64,000 nucleotides of DNA from Salinibacterium sp. UTAS2018. Lineage in GTDB: Bacteria > Actinomycetota > Actinomycetes > Actinomycetales > Microbacteriaceae. How positions within the stretch are numbered: the stretch's first letter is position 1; every line of letters begins with the position of its first letter. The position numbers and the translations under genes are program-made. The notes under the pieces are model-generated. The model was not told the DNA's origin, searched no databases, and was given only the letters and a program-made list of their open reading frames with translations. Positions 3,076 through 9,819 of this stretch are shown one piece after another. The DNA is taken from the NCBI RefSeq assembly GCF_004118935.1, contig NZ_CP035375.1:1116001-1180000 (forward strand), given 5' to 3'.

Positions 3076-4470
3076 ATGTCGTGGCTACGCCTACTCATCA
3101 ATCAACCACCCAAGGCTCCTCAGGCACCAGCGGGCTGGTACGACGACGGTTCGGGTAAGAATCGCTGGTGGGATGGCACCCAGTGGAGCAACAAATTCGC
3201 CGCAAAGGATGCACCGGTCCCACACCGCGCGCCGGAGTGGTTCAAGCCGACGATGAGCACTTGGATCGTCGGCGCCTTTCTGGTTCTGTTCGCCTACCTA
3301 ACCCTCATCTCCGCTGGTATCGCGGCCGTATTGGTTCTCGCGGCATTCTTCGGACTATTCACGGGCCTTTACGTGCTGATTAGTGGCCGTCGCTCCTGGG
3401 CGTCAGTGCCTTCGCGAAAAGCGGGTGCAATTGTCATCGCGGCGAGCCTCTTCGCCACCGTCATTGGCGGCACGGTTGGCGCCGGCAACGCTCCGGTCGA
3501 CGTGGTCGCGAATGCGGAACAAGTCGCCGAAACCGCCGCTCCATCGCCGTCGCCGACCCCGTCCGCGACGCGAGCTGCAAGCCCAAGCGCTACTTTCAGC
3601 GTGGATGCTCCCGCCGATCCCGACAAAGCAACTGCGCCCGCATCCGATGCCGCCGTAAGCATCCTCGACACCTCGTTCACCGATACGACGGCGCTAGCGC
3701 TGTTGGCGACCCTGCCGATCAAGGGCAAAGCACCGAAGACCGGGTATGCCCGAACGGCTAAGTTCGGTGCGGCGTGGTTAGACGTTGATCGCAACGGCTG
3801 CGACACTCGAAACGACATCTTGGCAAGGGACTTGAGCGCTCTTACGAAGAGCGGATCGTGCAAGGTACTCACTGGCACGCTCGTCTCGCCCTTCACCAAT
3901 ACGTCGATCGATTTTCTCCGAGGAAATACGACGTCAGCGTTAGTTCAGATCGATCACGTGGTGTCGCTCTCCAACGCTTGGCAAACTGGCGCACAGCAAT
4001 TGACGCAAGAGCAACGAATCACGCTGGCGAATGATCCCATCAACCTGCTGGCAGTTGACGGCAAGTCGAACGCTCAGAAGGGTGCTGGCGATGCGGCAAC
4101 CTGGTTGCCGTCAAACAAGAGCTTTCGCTGCAACTATGTCGCCGCCCAAGTTTCGGTCAAGGCTACCTACGGGCTGTGGGTGACGACAGCTGAGCACGAT
4201 GCGATCGAGCGGGTACTCGACTCGTGCCCCGACCAGCGCGCGCTGACCTCGTCGTTTACGCCGGCTCCGGAGCCCAAACCGGTCGTGGCCGCCCCCGACC
4301 CCGCCCCCGCGCCCGCGCCCGCTCCAGCACCGGCACCGGCACCGGTCGCTGCGTATTATGCCAACTGCACGGCCGTGCGTGCCGCTGGGGCAGCTCCGCT
4401 CTATGCTGGCCAGCCTGGATACGAAACACCGCGACTCGACCGCGATGGTGACGGGATCGCCTGCGAATAG
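3076..4470 (+). CDS. membrane-tethered HNH nuclease: DUF2510 + TM + DUF1524 + Excalibur
   Basis: A 464-residue modular protein. Residues about 18-40 (GWYDDGSGKNRWWDGTQW) form a DUF2510 domain, usual near the N terminus of actinobacterial membrane proteins. Two or three hydrophobic segments follow at about 60-140, then a Ser/Pro/Thr-rich linker. Residues about 215-390 resemble the DUF1524 HNH fold, with the characteristic QIDHVVSLSNAW and the downstream NLLAVDGKSNAQKG motif. After a Pro-Ala linker the protein ends in an Excalibur calcium-binding motif (ANCTAVRAAG to DRDGDGIACE). I infer an extracytoplasmic, Ca2+-dependent nuclease, possibly for nutrient DNA. A strong ribosome-binding site (CCGGAGGATCAC) precedes the ATG. 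The gene follows the broken antiporter with no obvious functional link. Confidence 0.85.
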   Translation: MSWLRLLINQPPKAPQAPAGWYDDGSGKNRWWDGTQWSNKFAAKDAPVPHRAPEWFKPTMSTWIVGAFLVLFAYLTLISAGIAAVLVLAAFFGLFTGLYVLISGRRSWASVPSRKAGAIVIAASLFATVIGGTVGAGNAPVDVVANAEQVAETAAPSPSPTPSATRAASPSATFSVDAPADPDKATAPASDAAVSILDTSFTDTTALALLATLPIKGKAPKTGYARTAKFGAAWLDVDRNGCDTRNDILARDLSALTKSGSCKVLTGTLVSPFTNTSIDFLRGNTTSALVQIDHVVSLSNAWQTGAQQLTQEQRITLANDPINLLAVDGKSNAQKGAGDAATWLPSNKSFRCNYVAAQVSVKATYGLWVTTAEHDAIERVLDSCPDQRALTSSFTPAPEPKPVVAAPDPAPAPAPAPAPAPAPVAAYYANCTAVRAAGAAPLYAGQPGYETPRLDRDGDGIACE

Positions 4471-4509
4471 CGCACCTCGACTCAGGCGGGCAGAAAGTAG
4501 GCTCAACCT

Positions 4510-4965
4510 ATGACGCAACTGATTGTGCTCGACACGATGTTCGATGCCCCCATCGCTGAGGTGTGCGCGTTGTCACTGAGCGTCAATCTGCATCTCGACT
4601 CAATGACGCACCACCGTGAAAAGGTCGTCGCGGGCCGCACCACGGGCCACTTCGTCGAGGGCGACGTCGTCACCTGGCAGGCCCGCCACTTCGGCCTACC
4701 GCTGCGCCTGACCGTGCGTATTTTTGACGTGGATGCCCCGCACAGCTTTGCGGATGAACAAGTGCGCGGCCCTTTCGCCGCCTACCACCACGAGCACCTC
4801 TTCACCGAGGTCGACGGCCGCACCCACATGCAGGATCGCCTCACCTTCGCGGCCCCCTTCGGGCCGCTCGGGCGCTTCGTCGAGAAGCTGTTCCTGCGGC
4901 GCTACATGCAGACGCTGCTCGAGGAGCGAAACCGAGTATTAGCGGCAGCAGCCGACACGAACTGA
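4510..4965 (+). CDS. SRPBCC (START/Bet v1-like) family protein
   Basis: The 151-residue protein has the alternating pattern of the SRPBCC fold. An N-terminal strand (QLIVLDTMFDAPIAEVCAL) leads into the short first helix, then come antiparallel strands (VVTWQARHFGLPLRLTVRI, HEHLFTEVDGRTHMQDRLTF), and a long C-terminal helix closes the pocket (FVEKLFLRRYMQTLLEERNR). These proteins bind hydrophobic ligands. No substrate can be inferred here and there are no catalytic residues to cite. The gene is transcribed towards the reverse-transcriptase island and ends about 200 bases before that island's terminator. It is probably the first native gene on that side of the insertion. Confidence 0.8.
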   Translation: MTQLIVLDTMFDAPIAEVCALSLSVNLHLDSMTHHREKVVAGRTTGHFVEGDVVTWQARHFGLPLRLTVRIFDVDAPHSFADEQVRGPFAAYHHEHLFTEVDGRTHMQDRLTFAAPFGPLGRFVEKLFLRRYMQTLLEERNRVLAAAADTN

Positions 4966-5167
4966 TTGTTCGCACGCGAGGCACAACCGAGTGCAGCACG
5001 TATCGTGCCGGCCCGTTGCTTGCTCGCGCTCGATCTAGCGACGAAGTGGCGGAGTTGCCCGCGCCTCTCCTCAATGGAGAAAGCATTTCGCCGCGTTCGT
5101 GACCATATAGACAATTGTCGGATGCCCGCATACTAGCGCACGCAAGCAGAGGTAAGAGCGACCGCCC

Positions 5168-5203
5168 AAAAAAGAAAAGGCCTACTTGTCTTTGCCACAA
5201 GGA
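5168..5203 (-). terminator. Rho-independent terminator candidate after the RT operon/ncRNA
   Basis: Read on the minus strand, CTTGT (5201-5197) and ACAAG (5189-5185) pair across a seven-base loop. Flanking CC/GG pairs extend the stem across a two-base bulge, and a T-rich tract (5179-5168) follows. It would end transcripts coming from the two reverse transcriptases and the structured segment after them. The stem is short, so confidence is moderate. Confidence 0.5.
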
Positions 5204-5435
5204 TCTTTCCCTGCGCTCTTAGGCAGTTGAAATCGACGATAGATAGCATGATCAGGCAAATGGGAAGGCCGGAAACAGCCAAGGCGGCAAGGCGGATTGA
5301 ACATCTCCGTTAAACACCAAAGTCTCCCTTACTGCGGAGACTTTGGGTGGAGGAGTAGATCGCGATACCTCCAGCGCCAGTGTGTGGGCAAAAGGTGGCA
5401 AGCCACTTTTAACCTTCGTTGCGACCTGCGCGCAG
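5204..5435 (-). ncRNA. candidate DRT3 non-coding RNA with ACACAC template-like stretch
   Basis: This segment starts at the stop codon of the second reverse transcriptase and holds no plausible gene. On the minus strand it folds into successive hairpins. The first, at 5414-5388, has a GTGG-CTTG-CCAC core extended by an A4/T4 helix. Next, CACACACT at 5386-5379 lies in a loop closed by GCC/GGC. A GGAGGTA...TAC..CTCC hairpin follows at 5372-5349, then a perfect 11-bp stem (CCAAAGTCTCC/GGAGACTTTGG) with an eight-base loop at 5346-5317, and finally a terminator at 5203-5168. DRT3 systems are known to need a non-coding RNA, and I recall that its conserved ACACAC serves as template for Drt3a. The structure and motif are seen directly. 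The identity as the DRT3 RNA is inference, and its exact ends are unknown. Confidence 0.55.
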
Positions 5436-7475
5436 TTAATATACCATTCGGGAAGATTTGAGCAACAATCTCTCAAAATAATGGTCGTTGACGCCCCAAT
5501 CGAATATCAACGTGCCAGTCGAGCCTCGCAATTCCAAAACCTGAGAGGGCAAAAGCCCCAGCGAATCACCTGCTTCGCTCGGCGTCAACGTCAAGTTTTC
5601 CGAAAGCGCTAAACGCAGGAGAGCTCTCTGCGTGGCATAGTCCGGATCGTTGGCACCCAAATCAATAATTTTTCGTACGCGCGCGAGCAGCTGGTCGCGC
5701 ACACTTTTAGTCTCAGCCCGTGCACCTACTGCTCTAAAGAGGCTGAGTATCGGAAAAACTTCGAGATCCTCAGTGGTCACATGCCGCGATTCGAGTAGCG
5801 CGCGCAACTGATCGGCCGAAAGCTCCCCTCCAAGGAAGACAAAGCAGTCGACCAAATTGAGCGTGTGCATGCCCAGCGATTTCTCGTTTTGGACGGCGAG
5901 AACTTGCGCCAACAACTCGCGGCGAACTTTATCTTTGAACGCGGTCATCGCCAGAAGCGGCAACCCAGCGTCGGCAAGTTGACGGACGCTGCCAACGATG
6001 ATCTGACAAAGCTTAAAGCTATGAGACGCAGACGGTGCACCCGCGTACGCGAAGAAAGCAACTTCTAGTACCGAATTGAGATAAGTAGCGAAGGAACTAG
6101 TGAAACGTCGACGCTCATGCTCTGTAGCAGCCGATGGCGAAAGATCAACTAAGAATCTCGCATATTTTTCGCAGGTGACATCCATACGGCGCCCCAGTGA
6201 ATACAGGTAGTAGTTAGCGAGCTCACCGTGTGATAGCTCGGCATCAATCAAGACTGATTTGTATTCAGCGATTACCTTGTTCGCGGAGAAATACACCGAT
6301 GCTGACGCGTTTTTGGAGTCCAGCTCACACTTCGTTAGTTTCTTGAGATCCTTCCTAATCTTGTGTTTTGCTACCGACATATTCGACCGCAACGGGGTCG
6401 AGAGGATTTCCTTCTTGCGTTCGTTAAGGTGGAGTTTGAAGTGAGTGAGGTGCTTTGATATGACTTCTTCTAGGAGGACTGTGTCACTCGATCTGCTCAG
6501 AAATACGAAGTAATCATCTACGTAACGCATGATTTCGTAGTCTCGGCCCGTGACGAGACCAAGACCTTCGAGTTCGCGCTCAATCCGGACGTCTATTTCC
6601 TGAAGTATCACTTCCGCGAAGATTCGAGAAAACTCTGGCCCAATGACGATTCCACTCGTTTCTCCGTAGTTCACGGCCTGGAGCAGACCATCGAACTTCC
6701 CACCGAAAGTATCCGACGTCTTCATGCGCGTCTTGGAGGCTTTACTGACATGACGGCCGTTGGTGACCCAAGAAAGCGTGTGGGTGTACACGCTCGGAAA
6801 GCAATTCGATACGTCAGCGCGCATGAGCGTCGGATACTTGCGCTCGCACGCGCGGAACTCGGACGATGTGTAAAACCGATTTATGTTGCTATACCTTCTA
6901 TAAGAAAAATACGAGGTTGCATGGTCGTACTCCAGATTGTGCTGTTCAATATCAAACGAGTCTCGGTCGCGACTTCGGTCGAATACGCCGTCTCGTTTGA
7001 CCTCGACCTTCGCGACGCGAGCCGGATGTCTAATCGAAAAGCTACTTCGGTTCGTGAAGAAGAGAATCAAGTCCCGGTAGTCGTGAACAAACCGAGATAT
7101 CTCGAGCATCGATTGTGGATGTAGAACTGAGAGCTCTCTAATCTTGCCGTTGTTGCCACGCAAACTGAAGCGATACGGATGAACCACCCGGGCCTTATCG
7201 CCACGAGTTACGCAATAAACAGCCCAATCCCCATCATCTGCTTCTCTCACGAGATCGGTGCCATCGAAAATCAGACGAAGCCGCAGATCTTGCGCTGTAC
7301 GAAGTCGCGCGCTCAAGACTCGGAATCTCTTAGTATCGCCAATCCACTCGAACCCGACCTGCCGAAGAAAGCGGTACAAGCCCACCGTCCCGAATGGCAA
7401 TGGAACCTCATAGGGCAAGACTTCCGACACAAGAGCTCGAATCGGGTCTCGCTTTACCCTGCGCATTTTCGTCAC
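5436..7475 (-). CDS. drt3b: defence-associated reverse transcriptase, Drt3b-like (UG8)
   Basis: A 679-residue reverse transcriptase. Motif A is LMRADVSNCFPSVYTH (Asp221). Motif B is GIVIGPEFSRIFAEVIL, with IGP in place of the usual PQG. Motif C is MRYVDDYFVFL (Asp320/Asp321). An extended N-terminal region containing EVLPYEVPLPF precedes the polymerase core. About 300 mostly helical residues follow it, as in UG/Abi reverse transcriptases, and there is no maturase or HNH endonuclease domain. Pairing with a second, smaller reverse transcriptase points to DRT type 3. I chose the GTG at 7475 because GGAGGAG lies six bases upstream and the GTG overlaps the previous gene's TGA (GTGA), implying coupled translation. 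A TTG at 7490 and an ATG at 7466 are alternatives. Base composition is visibly poorer in G+C than the neighbours, indicating horizontal transfer. Confidence 0.82.
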   Translation of the reverse strand: MTKMRRVKRDPIRALVSEVLPYEVPLPFGTVGLYRFLRQVGFEWIGDTKRFRVLSARLRTAQDLRLRLIFDGTDLVREADDGDWAVYCVTRGDKARVVHPYRFSLRGNNGKIRELSVLHPQSMLEISRFVHDYRDLILFFTNRSSFSIRHPARVAKVEVKRDGVFDRSRDRDSFDIEQHNLEYDHATSYFSYRRYSNINRFYTSSEFRACERKYPTLMRADVSNCFPSVYTHTLSWVTNGRHVSKASKTRMKTSDTFGGKFDGLLQAVNYGETSGIVIGPEFSRIFAEVILQEIDVRIERELEGLGLVTGRDYEIMRYVDDYFVFLSRSSDTVLLEEVISKHLTHFKLHLNERKKEILSTPLRSNMSVAKHKIRKDLKKLTKCELDSKNASASVYFSANKVIAEYKSVLIDAELSHGELANYYLYSLGRRMDVTCEKYARFLVDLSPSAATEHERRRFTSSFATYLNSVLEVAFFAYAGAPSASHSFKLCQIIVGSVRQLADAGLPLLAMTAFKDKVRRELLAQVLAVQNEKSLGMHTLNLVDCFVFLGGELSADQLRALLESRHVTTEDLEVFPILSLFRAVGARAETKSVRDQLLARVRKIIDLGANDPDYATQRALLRLALSENLTLTPSEAGDSLGLLPSQVLELRGSTGTLIFDWGVNDHYFERLLLKSSRMVY

Positions 7476-8884
7476 AACGTGCTCCTCCAACAGGCAACAA
7501 TTCGATCGATTCGAGGTTGTTTCGCGCGGAAGAACGTTTTTTCGCGAAAACCTTCTTCGAACGAAATTTGTTCGATTCGTTTGCGTAGCTCGCTTGTCAT
7601 TCGCACTCGGGTAGCGGTGACTAAACGCGCGAGAATCGCATCCAATTCGGATAGCTGCGAAGACCCGACGTCCAGGGCGCTATTGGAGAAGTAAATCCCC
7701 ACCACTACGTTGCTTTTGGAGTGACGTAGCCGCAGATTCCCCGCGAGGTACCTAAGCCTGTCAACGAGTAGAGCATCGAGACCATGGTTTGGGCGGCGCG
7801 GGTCGGGGCCATGCTTGCTCCAGGATTGGAACGCGAGCTCTATTCTCTTCTTTCTGGCCGCCATTCTGCGGTCACTAATCATCGTGCTCAACTTCTTCGT
7901 CTCATTGCTGAAGCGGTAGCCGAGATACTCAAGTTGATCGCCGTTCGAGAAGCGGCCACCAGCGTAAGACCCGTCCTCTGCAGTGTCGAATTCTTGGCGC
8001 TTCCTAGCGTTCTCGACCAGTTGGAGGCTCGCGAGCTCAAAGCCAATCTTGGTATCGACAAGTGCCCGGTTTTCGGGCGAGTCGATGACAATCACTATGT
8101 CGTCCACATAGCGGGAATAGAAGGTCACTCCTTCGAAGGAGCGGATAGTACGATCAAAATCAGAGAGGTAGAACTCCGCGAGTTGCGAACTGAGACCAAC
8201 CCCCTGCGGGACGCCGCTGGAGACCCCCGCAATCCGACGAAAGTTTTCAAGGAGCTTTGAAACTAACGTCAGGGAAATCGAATCGATCGCTCCGTTTGAC
8301 CCCAATTTTGTCAAAAGTTTTTCATGAGGAATGCTGCCAAAGAAATCTTGAATGTCCAGCTTCAGTATCGAATGCCCGTAATAGCGACGCAGACTCTGCT
8401 GTAGTGCTCGCACGACACTATTTCGGCTTTGAGGAGTCAACTTTGCTGCTTTTCTCACTACCGCGGAAACCTGGAGATGAGGTAGGGAATGCCCCAATTC
8501 GCTCGGAATCTGAAACGTCTGTCTGCTAGCTCCGGGCCCGGGCTTGGCCAACTCCGGACCCGCCTTCAAACCCCACGAAAACGCGCCGCCGGAGAGAGAC
8601 TTCTCAAAATCGGTGACTCCGTTTTCGATAGCGGACTGAATCGCAACGTCGCGTTTCTTCCGAAGTTTCTTACGACGCTTCTCGTACTTTTTTTTAAGAT
8701 TTTCGAGGGCTGCATCGTCTCCGGCGTGCAGCTTCCGATTCGACCTATAAAGCTCACGTGACTTTGAGAGCGTTTCGAAGCACAAATCCACCCCTGGGTC
8801 GATCCTCGTTGGGTCGTGCCCTTTGCGTGATTTCCGCGCAGATAGGCGGGTGAGAGCGTCTACCGAGTACGGGAGAGAGCTCAT
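7472..8884 (-). CDS. drt3a: defence-associated reverse transcriptase, Drt3a-like (UG3)
   Basis: A 470-residue reverse transcriptase and the first gene of the pair. Motif A is LKLDIQDFFGSIPHEKL (Asp177). Motif B is SGVPQGVGLSSQLAEF (about 223-238). Motif C is YSRYVDDIVIVID (Asp261/Asp262), followed by the LEYLGYRF segment. A very basic helix (KKKYEKRRKKLRKKRD, about 64-79) precedes the fingers and is a plausible RNA-binding element. The C-terminal 120 residues are helical, with no endonuclease or maturase domain, which argues against a group II intron. In DRT3 this subunit copies an ACACAC template in the partner RNA (recalled from the literature, not shown here). The start at ATG 8884 fits the expected N terminus, but its ribosome-binding site is weak. 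A TTG at 8959 would add 25 residues. The two genes overlap by four bases. Confidence 0.82.
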   Translation of the reverse strand: MSSLPYSVDALTRLSARKSRKGHDPTRIDPGVDLCFETLSKSRELYRSNRKLHAGDDAALENLKKKYEKRRKKLRKKRDVAIQSAIENGVTDFEKSLSGGAFSWGLKAGPELAKPGPGASRQTFQIPSELGHSLPHLQVSAVVRKAAKLTPQSRNSVVRALQQSLRRYYGHSILKLDIQDFFGSIPHEKLLTKLGSNGAIDSISLTLVSKLLENFRRIAGVSSGVPQGVGLSSQLAEFYLSDFDRTIRSFEGVTFYSRYVDDIVIVIDSPENRALVDTKIGFELASLQLVENARKRQEFDTAEDGSYAGGRFSNGDQLEYLGYRFSNETKKLSTMISDRRMAARKKRIELAFQSWSKHGPDPRRPNHGLDALLVDRLRYLAGNLRLRHSKSNVVVGIYFSNSALDVGSSQLSELDAILARLVTATRVRMTSELRKRIEQISFEEGFREKTFFRAKQPRIDRIVACWRSTL

Positions 8885-9040
8885 GGAAAAACTCGTTTCA
8901 AGTCGGGGAGTGTGTTGACCAAACCATATACGAGTGCATCTCGCTTCCGCACCACGCAAACTCGTCTCAGAGCAGCGCGCCCGGTCTCTCAGCTGGTGTC
9001 GATTCGACTTTACAAGACGTTTTGGACAGCATTACCGACG

Positions 9041-9065
9041 CAAAAAGCCCGGCGTGAGCCGGGCT
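9041..9065 (-). terminator. Rho-independent terminator of tRNA-Gln
   Basis: On the minus strand a perfect 8-bp stem AGCCCGGC/GCCGGGCT with a TCAC loop is followed by a run of five T. It lies 29 bases past the 3' end of tRNA-Gln. It also separates that gene from the promoter region of the reverse-transcriptase operon. Confidence 0.85.
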
Positions 9066-9093
9066 GAGCGGGAGTTGCTCCCTAGTTGTTTTG

Positions 9094-9165
9094 CTGGGGT
9101 ACCTGGACTCGAACCAAGAACAAAAGAATCAGAATCTTCCGTGTTGCCAATTACACCATACCCCA
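9094..9165 (-). tRNA. tRNA-Gln (anticodon CTG)
   Basis: The acceptor stem TGGGGTA/TACCCCA, D-stem GTGT/ACAC, anticodon stem GAAGA/TCTTT with loop TTCTGAT (anticodon CTG), and T-arm CTTGG-TTCGAGT-CCAGG give a complete cloverleaf. The discriminator is G and CCA is not encoded. The gene borders the low-GC reverse-transcriptase island, a common position for inserted defence genes. I found no second copy of its 3' end that could mark an attachment site. Confidence 0.95.
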
Positions 9166-9232
9166 CAGGATTCAGTCGGAACCGAACCGATTTACTACTT
9201 TAGCGCATCCTGAGCGGGCTGTGGTTCACTCC

Positions 9233-9261
9233 TTGACGCCATATAGGACTTGTCCTATATT
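9233..9261 (+). promoter_or_regulatory. padR promoter with overlapping perfect operator; probable leaderless start
   Basis: TTGACG (9233-9238) and TATATT (9256-9261) are spaced by exactly 17 bases, a near-consensus sigma-70 promoter. The 20-bp inverted repeat ATATAGGAC-TT-GTCCTATAT (9241-9260) fills the spacer and most of the -10 box. Bound repressor would block polymerase directly, as expected for PadR autoregulation. The padR ATG begins six bases after the -10 box, about where transcription should start, so the mRNA is probably leaderless. Confidence 0.8.
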
Positions 9262-9267
9262 CGAGTC

Positions 9268-9819
9268 ATGTCCCTCCTCCATGCCGTGCTCGGTTTCGTC
9301 GCGATTCAGCCGATGACGGGCTACGAACTCGGCAAGGCGTTCTCGACCACCGCGGCACACTTTTGGCCCGCCGATCAATCGCAGCTCTATCGCACCCTCC
9401 ACCGCGCCGAAGCTGACGGACTCGTTGAAAGCACCACCGTCGAGCAGGCGTCTCGCCCCGACCGTCGCCTCTACTCGATTCTCGAATCGGGGCGAGCGGC
9501 ATTGGAGACGTGGCTGGCCTCGCCGCTGGAACCCGACACCTCCCGCGAACCTTTTCTCCTGCGGCTATTCTTCGCCGGCTCGCTCGGCTCAGCGGGAGTG
9601 ATCGCACTGCTGGACCAACGTCGCTCCGCTGCCGTCGAGCTCCTCACCACCCTCGACGCTCTCGCAGCGAGCGCACCCCCGAAACTTTCGAAAGCAGCGC
9701 TCGCCACTCAGCTGCAATACGCAACGCTCGAATCGGGACGAGCCCACGCGCACGCCGAGATCACGTGGCTCGATGAGCTTCGCGCTCAACTCGCCGACCA
9801 CAAGGAGACAGCCCCATGA
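9268..9819 (+). CDS. PadR family transcriptional regulator
   Basis: A 183-residue protein. It begins with the PadR winged helix-turn-helix (MSLLHAVLGFVAIQPMTGYE, QSQLYRTLHRAEADGLVEST, then the wing RPDRRLYSILESGRAAL). A C-terminal helical Vir-type dimerisation region follows and ends near residue 180. PadR proteins repress by binding palindromes upstream of their own operon. A perfect palindrome overlaps this gene's promoter at 9241-9260. The ATG at 9268 is preferred over a TTG at 9250, because the TTG lies inside the operator and upstream of the predicted transcription start. The stop overlaps the next gene's ATG (ATGA), so the membrane protein downstream is very likely its co-regulated target. 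Confidence 0.9.
   Translation: MSLLHAVLGFVAIQPMTGYELGKAFSTTAAHFWPADQSQLYRTLHRAEADGLVESTTVEQASRPDRRLYSILESGRAALETWLASPLEPDTSREPFLLRLFFAGSLGSAGVIALLDQRRSAAVELLTTLDALAASAPPKLSKAALATQLQYATLESGRAHAHAEITWLDELRAQLADHKETAP

Follow-up and report, generated by a model that had tools for sequence, protein, structure and literature searches.

A complete DRT3 locus in Salinibacterium sp. UTAS2018, with a proposed AC-template RNA whose sequence suggests a compact pseudoknot

DRT3 systems have been described in E. coli and are known to us from the available text of Wang et al., 2026 (PMC13174585), from Deng et al., 2026 as reported in papers citing it, and from the structures 9z6y and 26cz. The available text of PMC13174585 reports that in E. 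coli Drt3b residue E22 (with R71) favours dATP, R241 favours dCTP and Y666 primes synthesis; that GreA is required for defence; and that a DRT3 plasmid could not be propagated in E. coli lacking RecBCD components. In the same text, the preprint's own RNA model comprises 41 systems by legend and 32 unique hits by methods. DRT10 (UG17) and DRT9 share RNA-templated repeat synthesis with DRT3, and the DRT10 RNA has a stem-loop directly 5′ of its template, as in DRT3 RNA (PMC12632851, text available in part). However, their templates are unlike that of DRT3, being variable in DRT10 and poly-U in DRT9, and DRT10 has a SLATT protein where DRT3 has a second reverse transcriptase (RT). Whether DRT3 systems share one architecture or include subtypes with other outputs is described as open in a 2026 review (PMC13314766, section 7, in the part available). 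DRT3 from actinobacteria is as such not new, being already named in databases for Brevibacterium antiquum, Brevibacterium gallinarum, Aurantimicrobium minutum, Microbacterium sp. and Scrofimicrobium, and no description of the RNA of these systems was found in the available parts of the literature consulted.

The DNA analysed here (the window) is a stretch of 64,000 nucleotides from Salinibacterium sp. UTAS2018 (NZ_CP035375.1, positions 1,116,001 to 1,180,000), and a complete DRT3 locus occupies window positions 5317–8884 on the minus strand. As in E. coli, the order is drt3a–drt3b–RNA, both RT families are represented, an AC template follows drt3b, and Drt3b carries the glutamate and arginine base selectors and a C-terminal priming tyrosine; unlike the E. 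coli systems, the locus is actinobacterial and its predicted RNA is compact, with a helix (c/d) beginning 6 nt after the template. The drt3a gene (7472–8884, minus strand, ATG start) encodes a Class 2 (UG3) RT of 470 residues, a predicted RNA-templated poly(dTdG) polymerase. The drt3b gene (5436–7475, minus strand) begins at a GTG codon preceded by GGAGGAG and encodes a Class 1 (UG8) RT of 679 residues, a predicted protein-templated, protein-primed poly(dCdA) polymerase. The two genes share GTGA (7472–7475, minus strand), which holds the drt3a stop and the drt3b start. A longer drt3a reading frame reaches 8959 and starts with TTG; the ATG at 8884 was preferred by comparison with relatives, since, among the five nearest relatives in the alignment, four have methionine before PYT and the fifth (L012) has a valine codon there. 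YVDD and the motif A aspartate are intact in both proteins, RVT_1 is the only Pfam family in either at an E-value of 0.001, and no maturase or endonuclease domain is listed at this threshold. An earlier note on this DNA, which described two adjacent, overlapping and complete RTs without maturase or endonuclease domain, is thus borne out. The lower bound of that note, 5168, takes in the non-coding RNA, which it had left unplaced.

The same note had called the pair DRT3 (UG3 plus UG8) and proposed comparison with the Drt3a and Drt3b profiles. PADLOC and NCBIfam profiles were run on the longer reading frames (drt3a 7472–8959, drt3b from 7490). Drt3a scored 298.7 bits (E-value 2.4e-89) against the PADLOC Drt3a model and 270.5 bits against NCBIfam NF041747 (cut-off 200), and Drt3b scored 496 bits (4.8e-149) against the PADLOC Drt3b model and 449.5 bits against NF041748 (cut-off 350). 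Sequence matches to solved structures were 26cz and 9z6y for Drt3b and 9z6y for Drt3a. Best matches to group II intron or retron RTs had been named as evidence against DRT3, and these models score far lower: the group II intron model TIGR04416 gave just 74.7 bits with Drt3a (cut-off 300) and 37.2 bits with Drt3b, and the retron St85 model gave just 48.6 bits with Drt3a (cut-off 235). The pair also recurs, with an upstream reading frame of at least 330 codons in 105/117 non-duplicate loci, each with YVDD, FVDD or YADD, and an upstream RT reading frame in 102 of the 109 loci whose Drt3b has a C-terminal tyrosine. The DRT3 call is therefore supported by family models, specificity residues and an AC-template RNA, and its sequence identifies it as a true and complete DRT3.

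Alignment with 26cz, after working out the numbering offset, placed E23, R113 and R284 of Drt3b at E22, R71 and R241 of the E. coli protein; the last residue, Y679, was equated with Y666 by its C-terminal position, as the 26cz alignment stops earlier. Conservation was read from 120 listed homologues, including the window's own, drawn from 741 matches. Among these 120 the E23 column holds glutamate in 113/113 rows with a letter, the R113 column arginine in 113/114, the R284 column arginine in 120/120, and the terminal residue is tyrosine in 117 of 118 rows with a letter. Y679 is also invariant across the 31 sequences of a smaller alignment (A1), in which the window translation is joined by 30 of the remaining 119 homologues. 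In a 109-row alignment of loci, which takes in the query, the copy from its own genome and duplicate genomes, the corresponding counts are E 108 and D 1, R113 and R284 each 109/109, and Y 106, F 2 and A 1 in the terminal column. The sole glutamate-to-aspartate variant at the dATP-selecting position is an IMG/VR contig (L105), the template of which is still ACACAC; such a change is reported to retain partial poly(dCdA) synthesis (PMC13174585, available text).

The proposed DRT3 RNA (5317–5435, minus strand) was placed by position, template and helices, with its boundaries inferred to run from the drt3b stop to the end of the last hairpin. Its CACACAC template (5380–5386, minus strand) follows the drt3b stop at a distance of 49 nt. 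Immediately 5′ of it, a stem-loop (5390–5410, minus strand; pairing by sequence, with one single-base bulge needed) is the candidate template boundary and occupies the same place as the covarying stem of other DRT3 RNAs. The likely 3′ end structure, judged from geometry and coordinates, is an 11-bp hairpin, CCAAAGUCUCC/GGAGACUUUGG (5317–5346, minus strand), which has no strong T-run after it and is absent from the output of the terminator scan. A search of Rfam (E-value 1) over 4400–9300 returned a tRNA and one sub-threshold riboswitch match overlapping that tRNA, and nothing else.

A scan of bacterial genomes yielded the best 80 of 436 matches, viral contigs yielded 25, and three loci were taken from plasmids. 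Removal of five duplicate entries left 117 loci, of L110 (too little sequence) 116, and of seven lacking the tyrosine 109, each with a tyrosine among the last three residues of its Drt3b reading frame and no less than 150 nt of sequence beyond it. ACACAC or CACACA occurs no more than 230 nt past the drt3b stop in 109/109 loci (ACACAC in 105), compared with an average of 10.4 loci and a maximum of 18 in dinucleotide shuffles; other repeats are found in few of the same loci (AG 6, CT 16, GT 7, AT 6, CG 8). As the loci are akin to one another, 109/109 is to be read as breadth and not as 109 independent events. None of the seven loci without the terminal tyrosine (L100, L103, L104, L107, L109, L111 and L112) has an AC repeat. 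The shortest form, CACACA, occurs in four loci, two actinobacterial (L007 and L120), one from Schmidhempelia (L032) and one from Gilliamella (L051). Apart from these four and the single glutamate-to-aspartate change, no template or residue variants implying another repeat were found among the 109 loci; hence, with the AC template in every tyrosine-ending locus, no DRT3 with another repeat was found.

The fold of the RNA was examined in an alignment (A2) of 56 of 65 candidate non-actinobacterial loci, aligned by sequence, with nine loci of unusual length left out (L032, L050, L051, L067, L071, L073, L089, L091 and L113) and six further loci skipped for their hairpin position. Three elements covary in A2: the helix at the base of the template loop (paired in 82.0% of cells), the stem-loop immediately 5′ of the template (90.0%) and the 3′ hairpin (99.1%). 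A fourth covarying helix, P1, joins the segment after the drt3b stop to the apical loop of the 3′ hairpin, and crosses both the template-loop-closing helix and that hairpin, creating a pseudoknot; it is paired in 84.7% of cells, in an alignment that leans somewhat towards the structure because the hairpin ends were picked with the help of P1 pairing. The window RNA and its clade appear to share this topology in a compact form. Here the 5′ arm of P1, AGGUCGC (5421–5427, minus strand), pairs with GCGAUCU (5357–5363), which lies within the loop of helix c/d, and helix c/d itself is formed by UGGAGG (5368–5373) and CCUCCA (5348–5353), all on the minus strand. An additional pairing is available to the final hairpin, whose loop (GCAGUAAG, 5328–5335) is complementary to ACUGC at the drt3b stop (5432–5436), again on the minus strand, in an arrangement that resembles the longer RNAs of other phyla and might compete with P1 or add to it. 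In L096, whose Drt3b is closely related to the solved one, the predicted arms are GUAACCU/AGGUUGC for P1 and AAGGG/CCCUU for helix c/d.

This pseudoknot might be an artefact, the 3′ hairpin being merely a terminator whose loop pairs with the 5′ segment by chance or as a phylogenetic echo. A blind test, in which the strongest hairpin was taken and P1 ignored, lends some weight to such a reading: the locus's own loop beats 95% of foreign loops in 38/99 rows, or 16/67 when counted by distinct loops, against 12/67 in the loop-shuffle control. Likewise, two of the five measures for P1 alone lie within the shuffles, the count of pairs with changes in both arms (seven of seven) being reached by 110/500 and that of further pair types by 140/500. 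In the actinobacteria, represented by all 20 non-duplicate loci of the collection, a two-helix set under loose geometry fits 12/20 loci against 6.0 expected (P 0.003, with rows treated as independent), 137/380 swapped halves match too, and in the window clade 5/6 own combinations match against 17/30 swapped ones. Set against this, double changes for P1 alone occur in 53 cells of A2 compared with 20.5 after shuffling, its percentage paired or covariation score is matched by 0/500 shuffles, and sliding the helix by 1–3 columns lowers pairing to 43–57%. When the spacing was fixed, which was done after seeing the data, the actinobacterial count became 11/20 against 0.44 expected, with 45/380 swaps matching. 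L003, L005, L006, L014, L015, L020 and L119 did not pass the actinobacterial two-helix geometry, and L008 fits, by eye, just with a bulge. On balance we regard an artefact as unlikely, and the sequences suggest an RNA with a covarying pseudoknot, of which the actinobacterial form is a compact version.

A first pseudoknot search was dropped as too permissive, since it frequently chose terminator hairpins. The single-sequence minimum-energy fold of the window RNA is a different, nested fold without a pseudoknot. A covariance model built from the 56 non-actinobacterial loci ranked the correct window site first, yet at a non-significant 6 bits (E-value 0.83), and gave no significant match on actinobacterial RNAs (best of 17 sources, E-value 2.4); the earlier suggestion of a divergent partner RNA was right. 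In the literature, as far as available and leaving aside figures and Deng et al., pseudoknots are mentioned for DRT2, DRT10 and DRT1 and none was found for the DRT3 RNA; the word itself is absent from the available text of PMC13174585, figures aside.

The protein search with Drt3b gave 741 proteins at an E-value of 0.001 among 7999 candidates scored. Among the 120 matches listed, no full-length homologue other than its own record exceeds 60% identity with the window Drt3b, and one match of 83% identity covers just 68%. Relatives in the plasmid and phage collections (165 and 9 records) are all below 60% identity. The named actinobacterial systems belong to the same Drt3b clade (45–50% identity) and have the same template and the compact RNA layout (in L008 with the bulge). 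Genome sampling at an E-value of 1e-40 found DRT3 in 7/299 genomes of the family, 1/394 of the class and 7/396 of the order, own genome included each time, so DRT3 is rare and scattered in these taxa. One E. coli plasmid locus (L148, CP083496.1, match H1) is DRT3-like, lies downstream of an annotated integrase gene and has a drt3b match spanning more than one annotated reading frame; it was not used.

The locus lies within a variable segment of about 4.1 kb (4933–9041), delimited by BLASTN breakpoints in seven congeners at 4931–4932 and at 9042 (9089 in one locus). It is bordered by a tRNA-Gln(CTG) gene (9093–9165, minus strand; ARAGORN and Rfam) on one side and, on the other, by a polyketide-cyclase-like gene (4510–4965), which is found in 8/27 genomes of the genus, own included. 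Between the same flanks the congeners (L142, L143, L144, L145, L146, L147 and L134) hold 694 bp (three genomes), 1864, 2028, 3027 or 5088 bp of other DNA. Nine cargo proteins were scanned, those of L147 and L134 not included. They comprise the products of ThsB-like TIR and SLOG genes in L142 (Thoeris-like), a NERD nuclease domain protein with weaker helicase matches in L144 and a SIR2 protein matching PDC-S25 in L145; the 192-aa frame of L143 and the 556-aa frame of L146 had no family match, and no integrase was recognised among the nine. From these comparisons the region looks like a defence hotspot with exchangeable cargo. Near it, at 3076–4470 on the plus strand, lies a gene for a protein with DUF2510, GmrSD C-terminal and Excalibur domains, without a PADLOC match. 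GC content is 0.49–0.54 over the four kb of the locus, compared with 0.60–0.64 in the two kb on each side, and together with the hotspot this supports the horizontal acquisition that had been proposed earlier.

One alternative is that the DRT3 locus has fallen silent or into decay in its present host. The foreign GC content and the rarity of DRT3 in the family are compatible with silence, as is the promoter scan, which found no sigma-70-like site in the region against 2.3 in shuffles. Both reading frames, however, are intact, the residues for catalysis, templating and priming are all present, the RNA helices are preserved, and P1 and helix c/d have diverged from their counterparts in relatives without loss of pairing; we judge a silent or decayed locus to be improbable. 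That the two genes are a different defence RT pair merely resembling DRT3, for instance a UG17/DRT10-like RT with an AbiK/DRT4/DRT6-like RT, is very improbable. In its favour, folds are shared across such RTs (the Drt3b model superposing best, among the matches listed, on DRT4, DRT6, UG15, AbiP2 and AbiK). Against it, Drt3a scores 298.7 bits with its own PADLOC model against 104.6 with RT_UG17, with the Drt9 model likewise far below, Drt3b scores 496 against 155.5 with Drt6 (differences of roughly 190 and 340 bits), and the AC template and C-terminal tyrosine are both present. The predicted Drt3b structure (pLDDT 82.4; Foldseek and VIA-align) is closest, among the matches listed, to these Class 1 UG RTs, and its residues 398 to 675, after the RT domain, are nearly all helices, which fits an alpha-helical repeat domain. 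The Drt3b entries 9z6y and 26cz are absent among the fold matches listed, from a library ending in April 2026, and this was not counted as evidence.

Taken as DRT3, the locus very probably encodes a complete, and probably working, abortive-infection system, for which the following two-polymerase mechanism is proposed. By analogy with the E. coli systems, Drt3a would copy the AC repeat of the RNA again and again, up to the 5′ stem-loop, yielding poly(dTdG); the pseudoknot may keep the template loop in place within the Drt3a complex. Synthesis by Drt3b would start from its C-terminal tyrosine and produce poly(dCdA), with E23 admitting dATP and R284 dCTP, again as inferred from E. coli. Annealing of the two strands would give a repetitive duplex. 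A dsDNA exonuclease, here most likely an AdnAB-like complex and not RecBCD, would keep this duplex scarce in the resting cell; a phage that disables the nuclease, or another trigger, would let the duplex build up, and growth would stop before phage release.

The GltX protein of the host is 90% identical to its nearest named counterpart, from Rhodoglobus vestalii, so the host is Rhodoglobus-like (Microbacteriaceae). It differs from the host of E. coli DRT3 in its nucleases. No match to RecC was found in the host genome, the E. coli control being detected, and the best RecB match reached 77.6 bits against a cut-off of 696. Instead, two adjacent, overlapping proteins (longest reading frames 1033 and 1100 aa) each combine UvrD helicase and PDDEXK_1 nuclease domains, which we take to be the layout of AdnAB. 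The published restraint by RecBCD may therefore not apply unchanged. Judged by presence alone, the AdnAB-like pair is a candidate restraint if the E. coli logic holds. By the RecB and RecC searches, the host situation of a RecBCD-restrained DRT3 does not obtain here, which is a feature of the genome around the locus and not of DRT3 as a family. A GreA homologue in the host scored 122.7 bits, below the NCBIfam greA cut-off of 139 and over both Pfam cut-offs.

The AC template in 109/109 loci and the matching glutamate and arginine, with one E-to-D change in 109 rows, argue that the output is locked by a need for complementarity. More tentatively, we can imagine that actinobacterial DRT3 forms a distinct RNA subtype, in which a compact double pseudoknot directly wraps an invariant AC template, and that it guards AdnAB and not RecBCD; DRT3 might then sense the loss of its host's own end-resection nuclease, with the repeat frozen across phyla since an RNA template and an unrelated protein template have to remain complementary to each other. 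For the family, this locus adds a comparison that combines an apparently invariant output, a divergent and compact RNA and a host for testing the nuclease-guard idea. The covarying pseudoknot gives the DRT3 RNA a testable fold, and a host without RecC, and without RecB over its cut-off, makes the nuclease-guard model directly testable.
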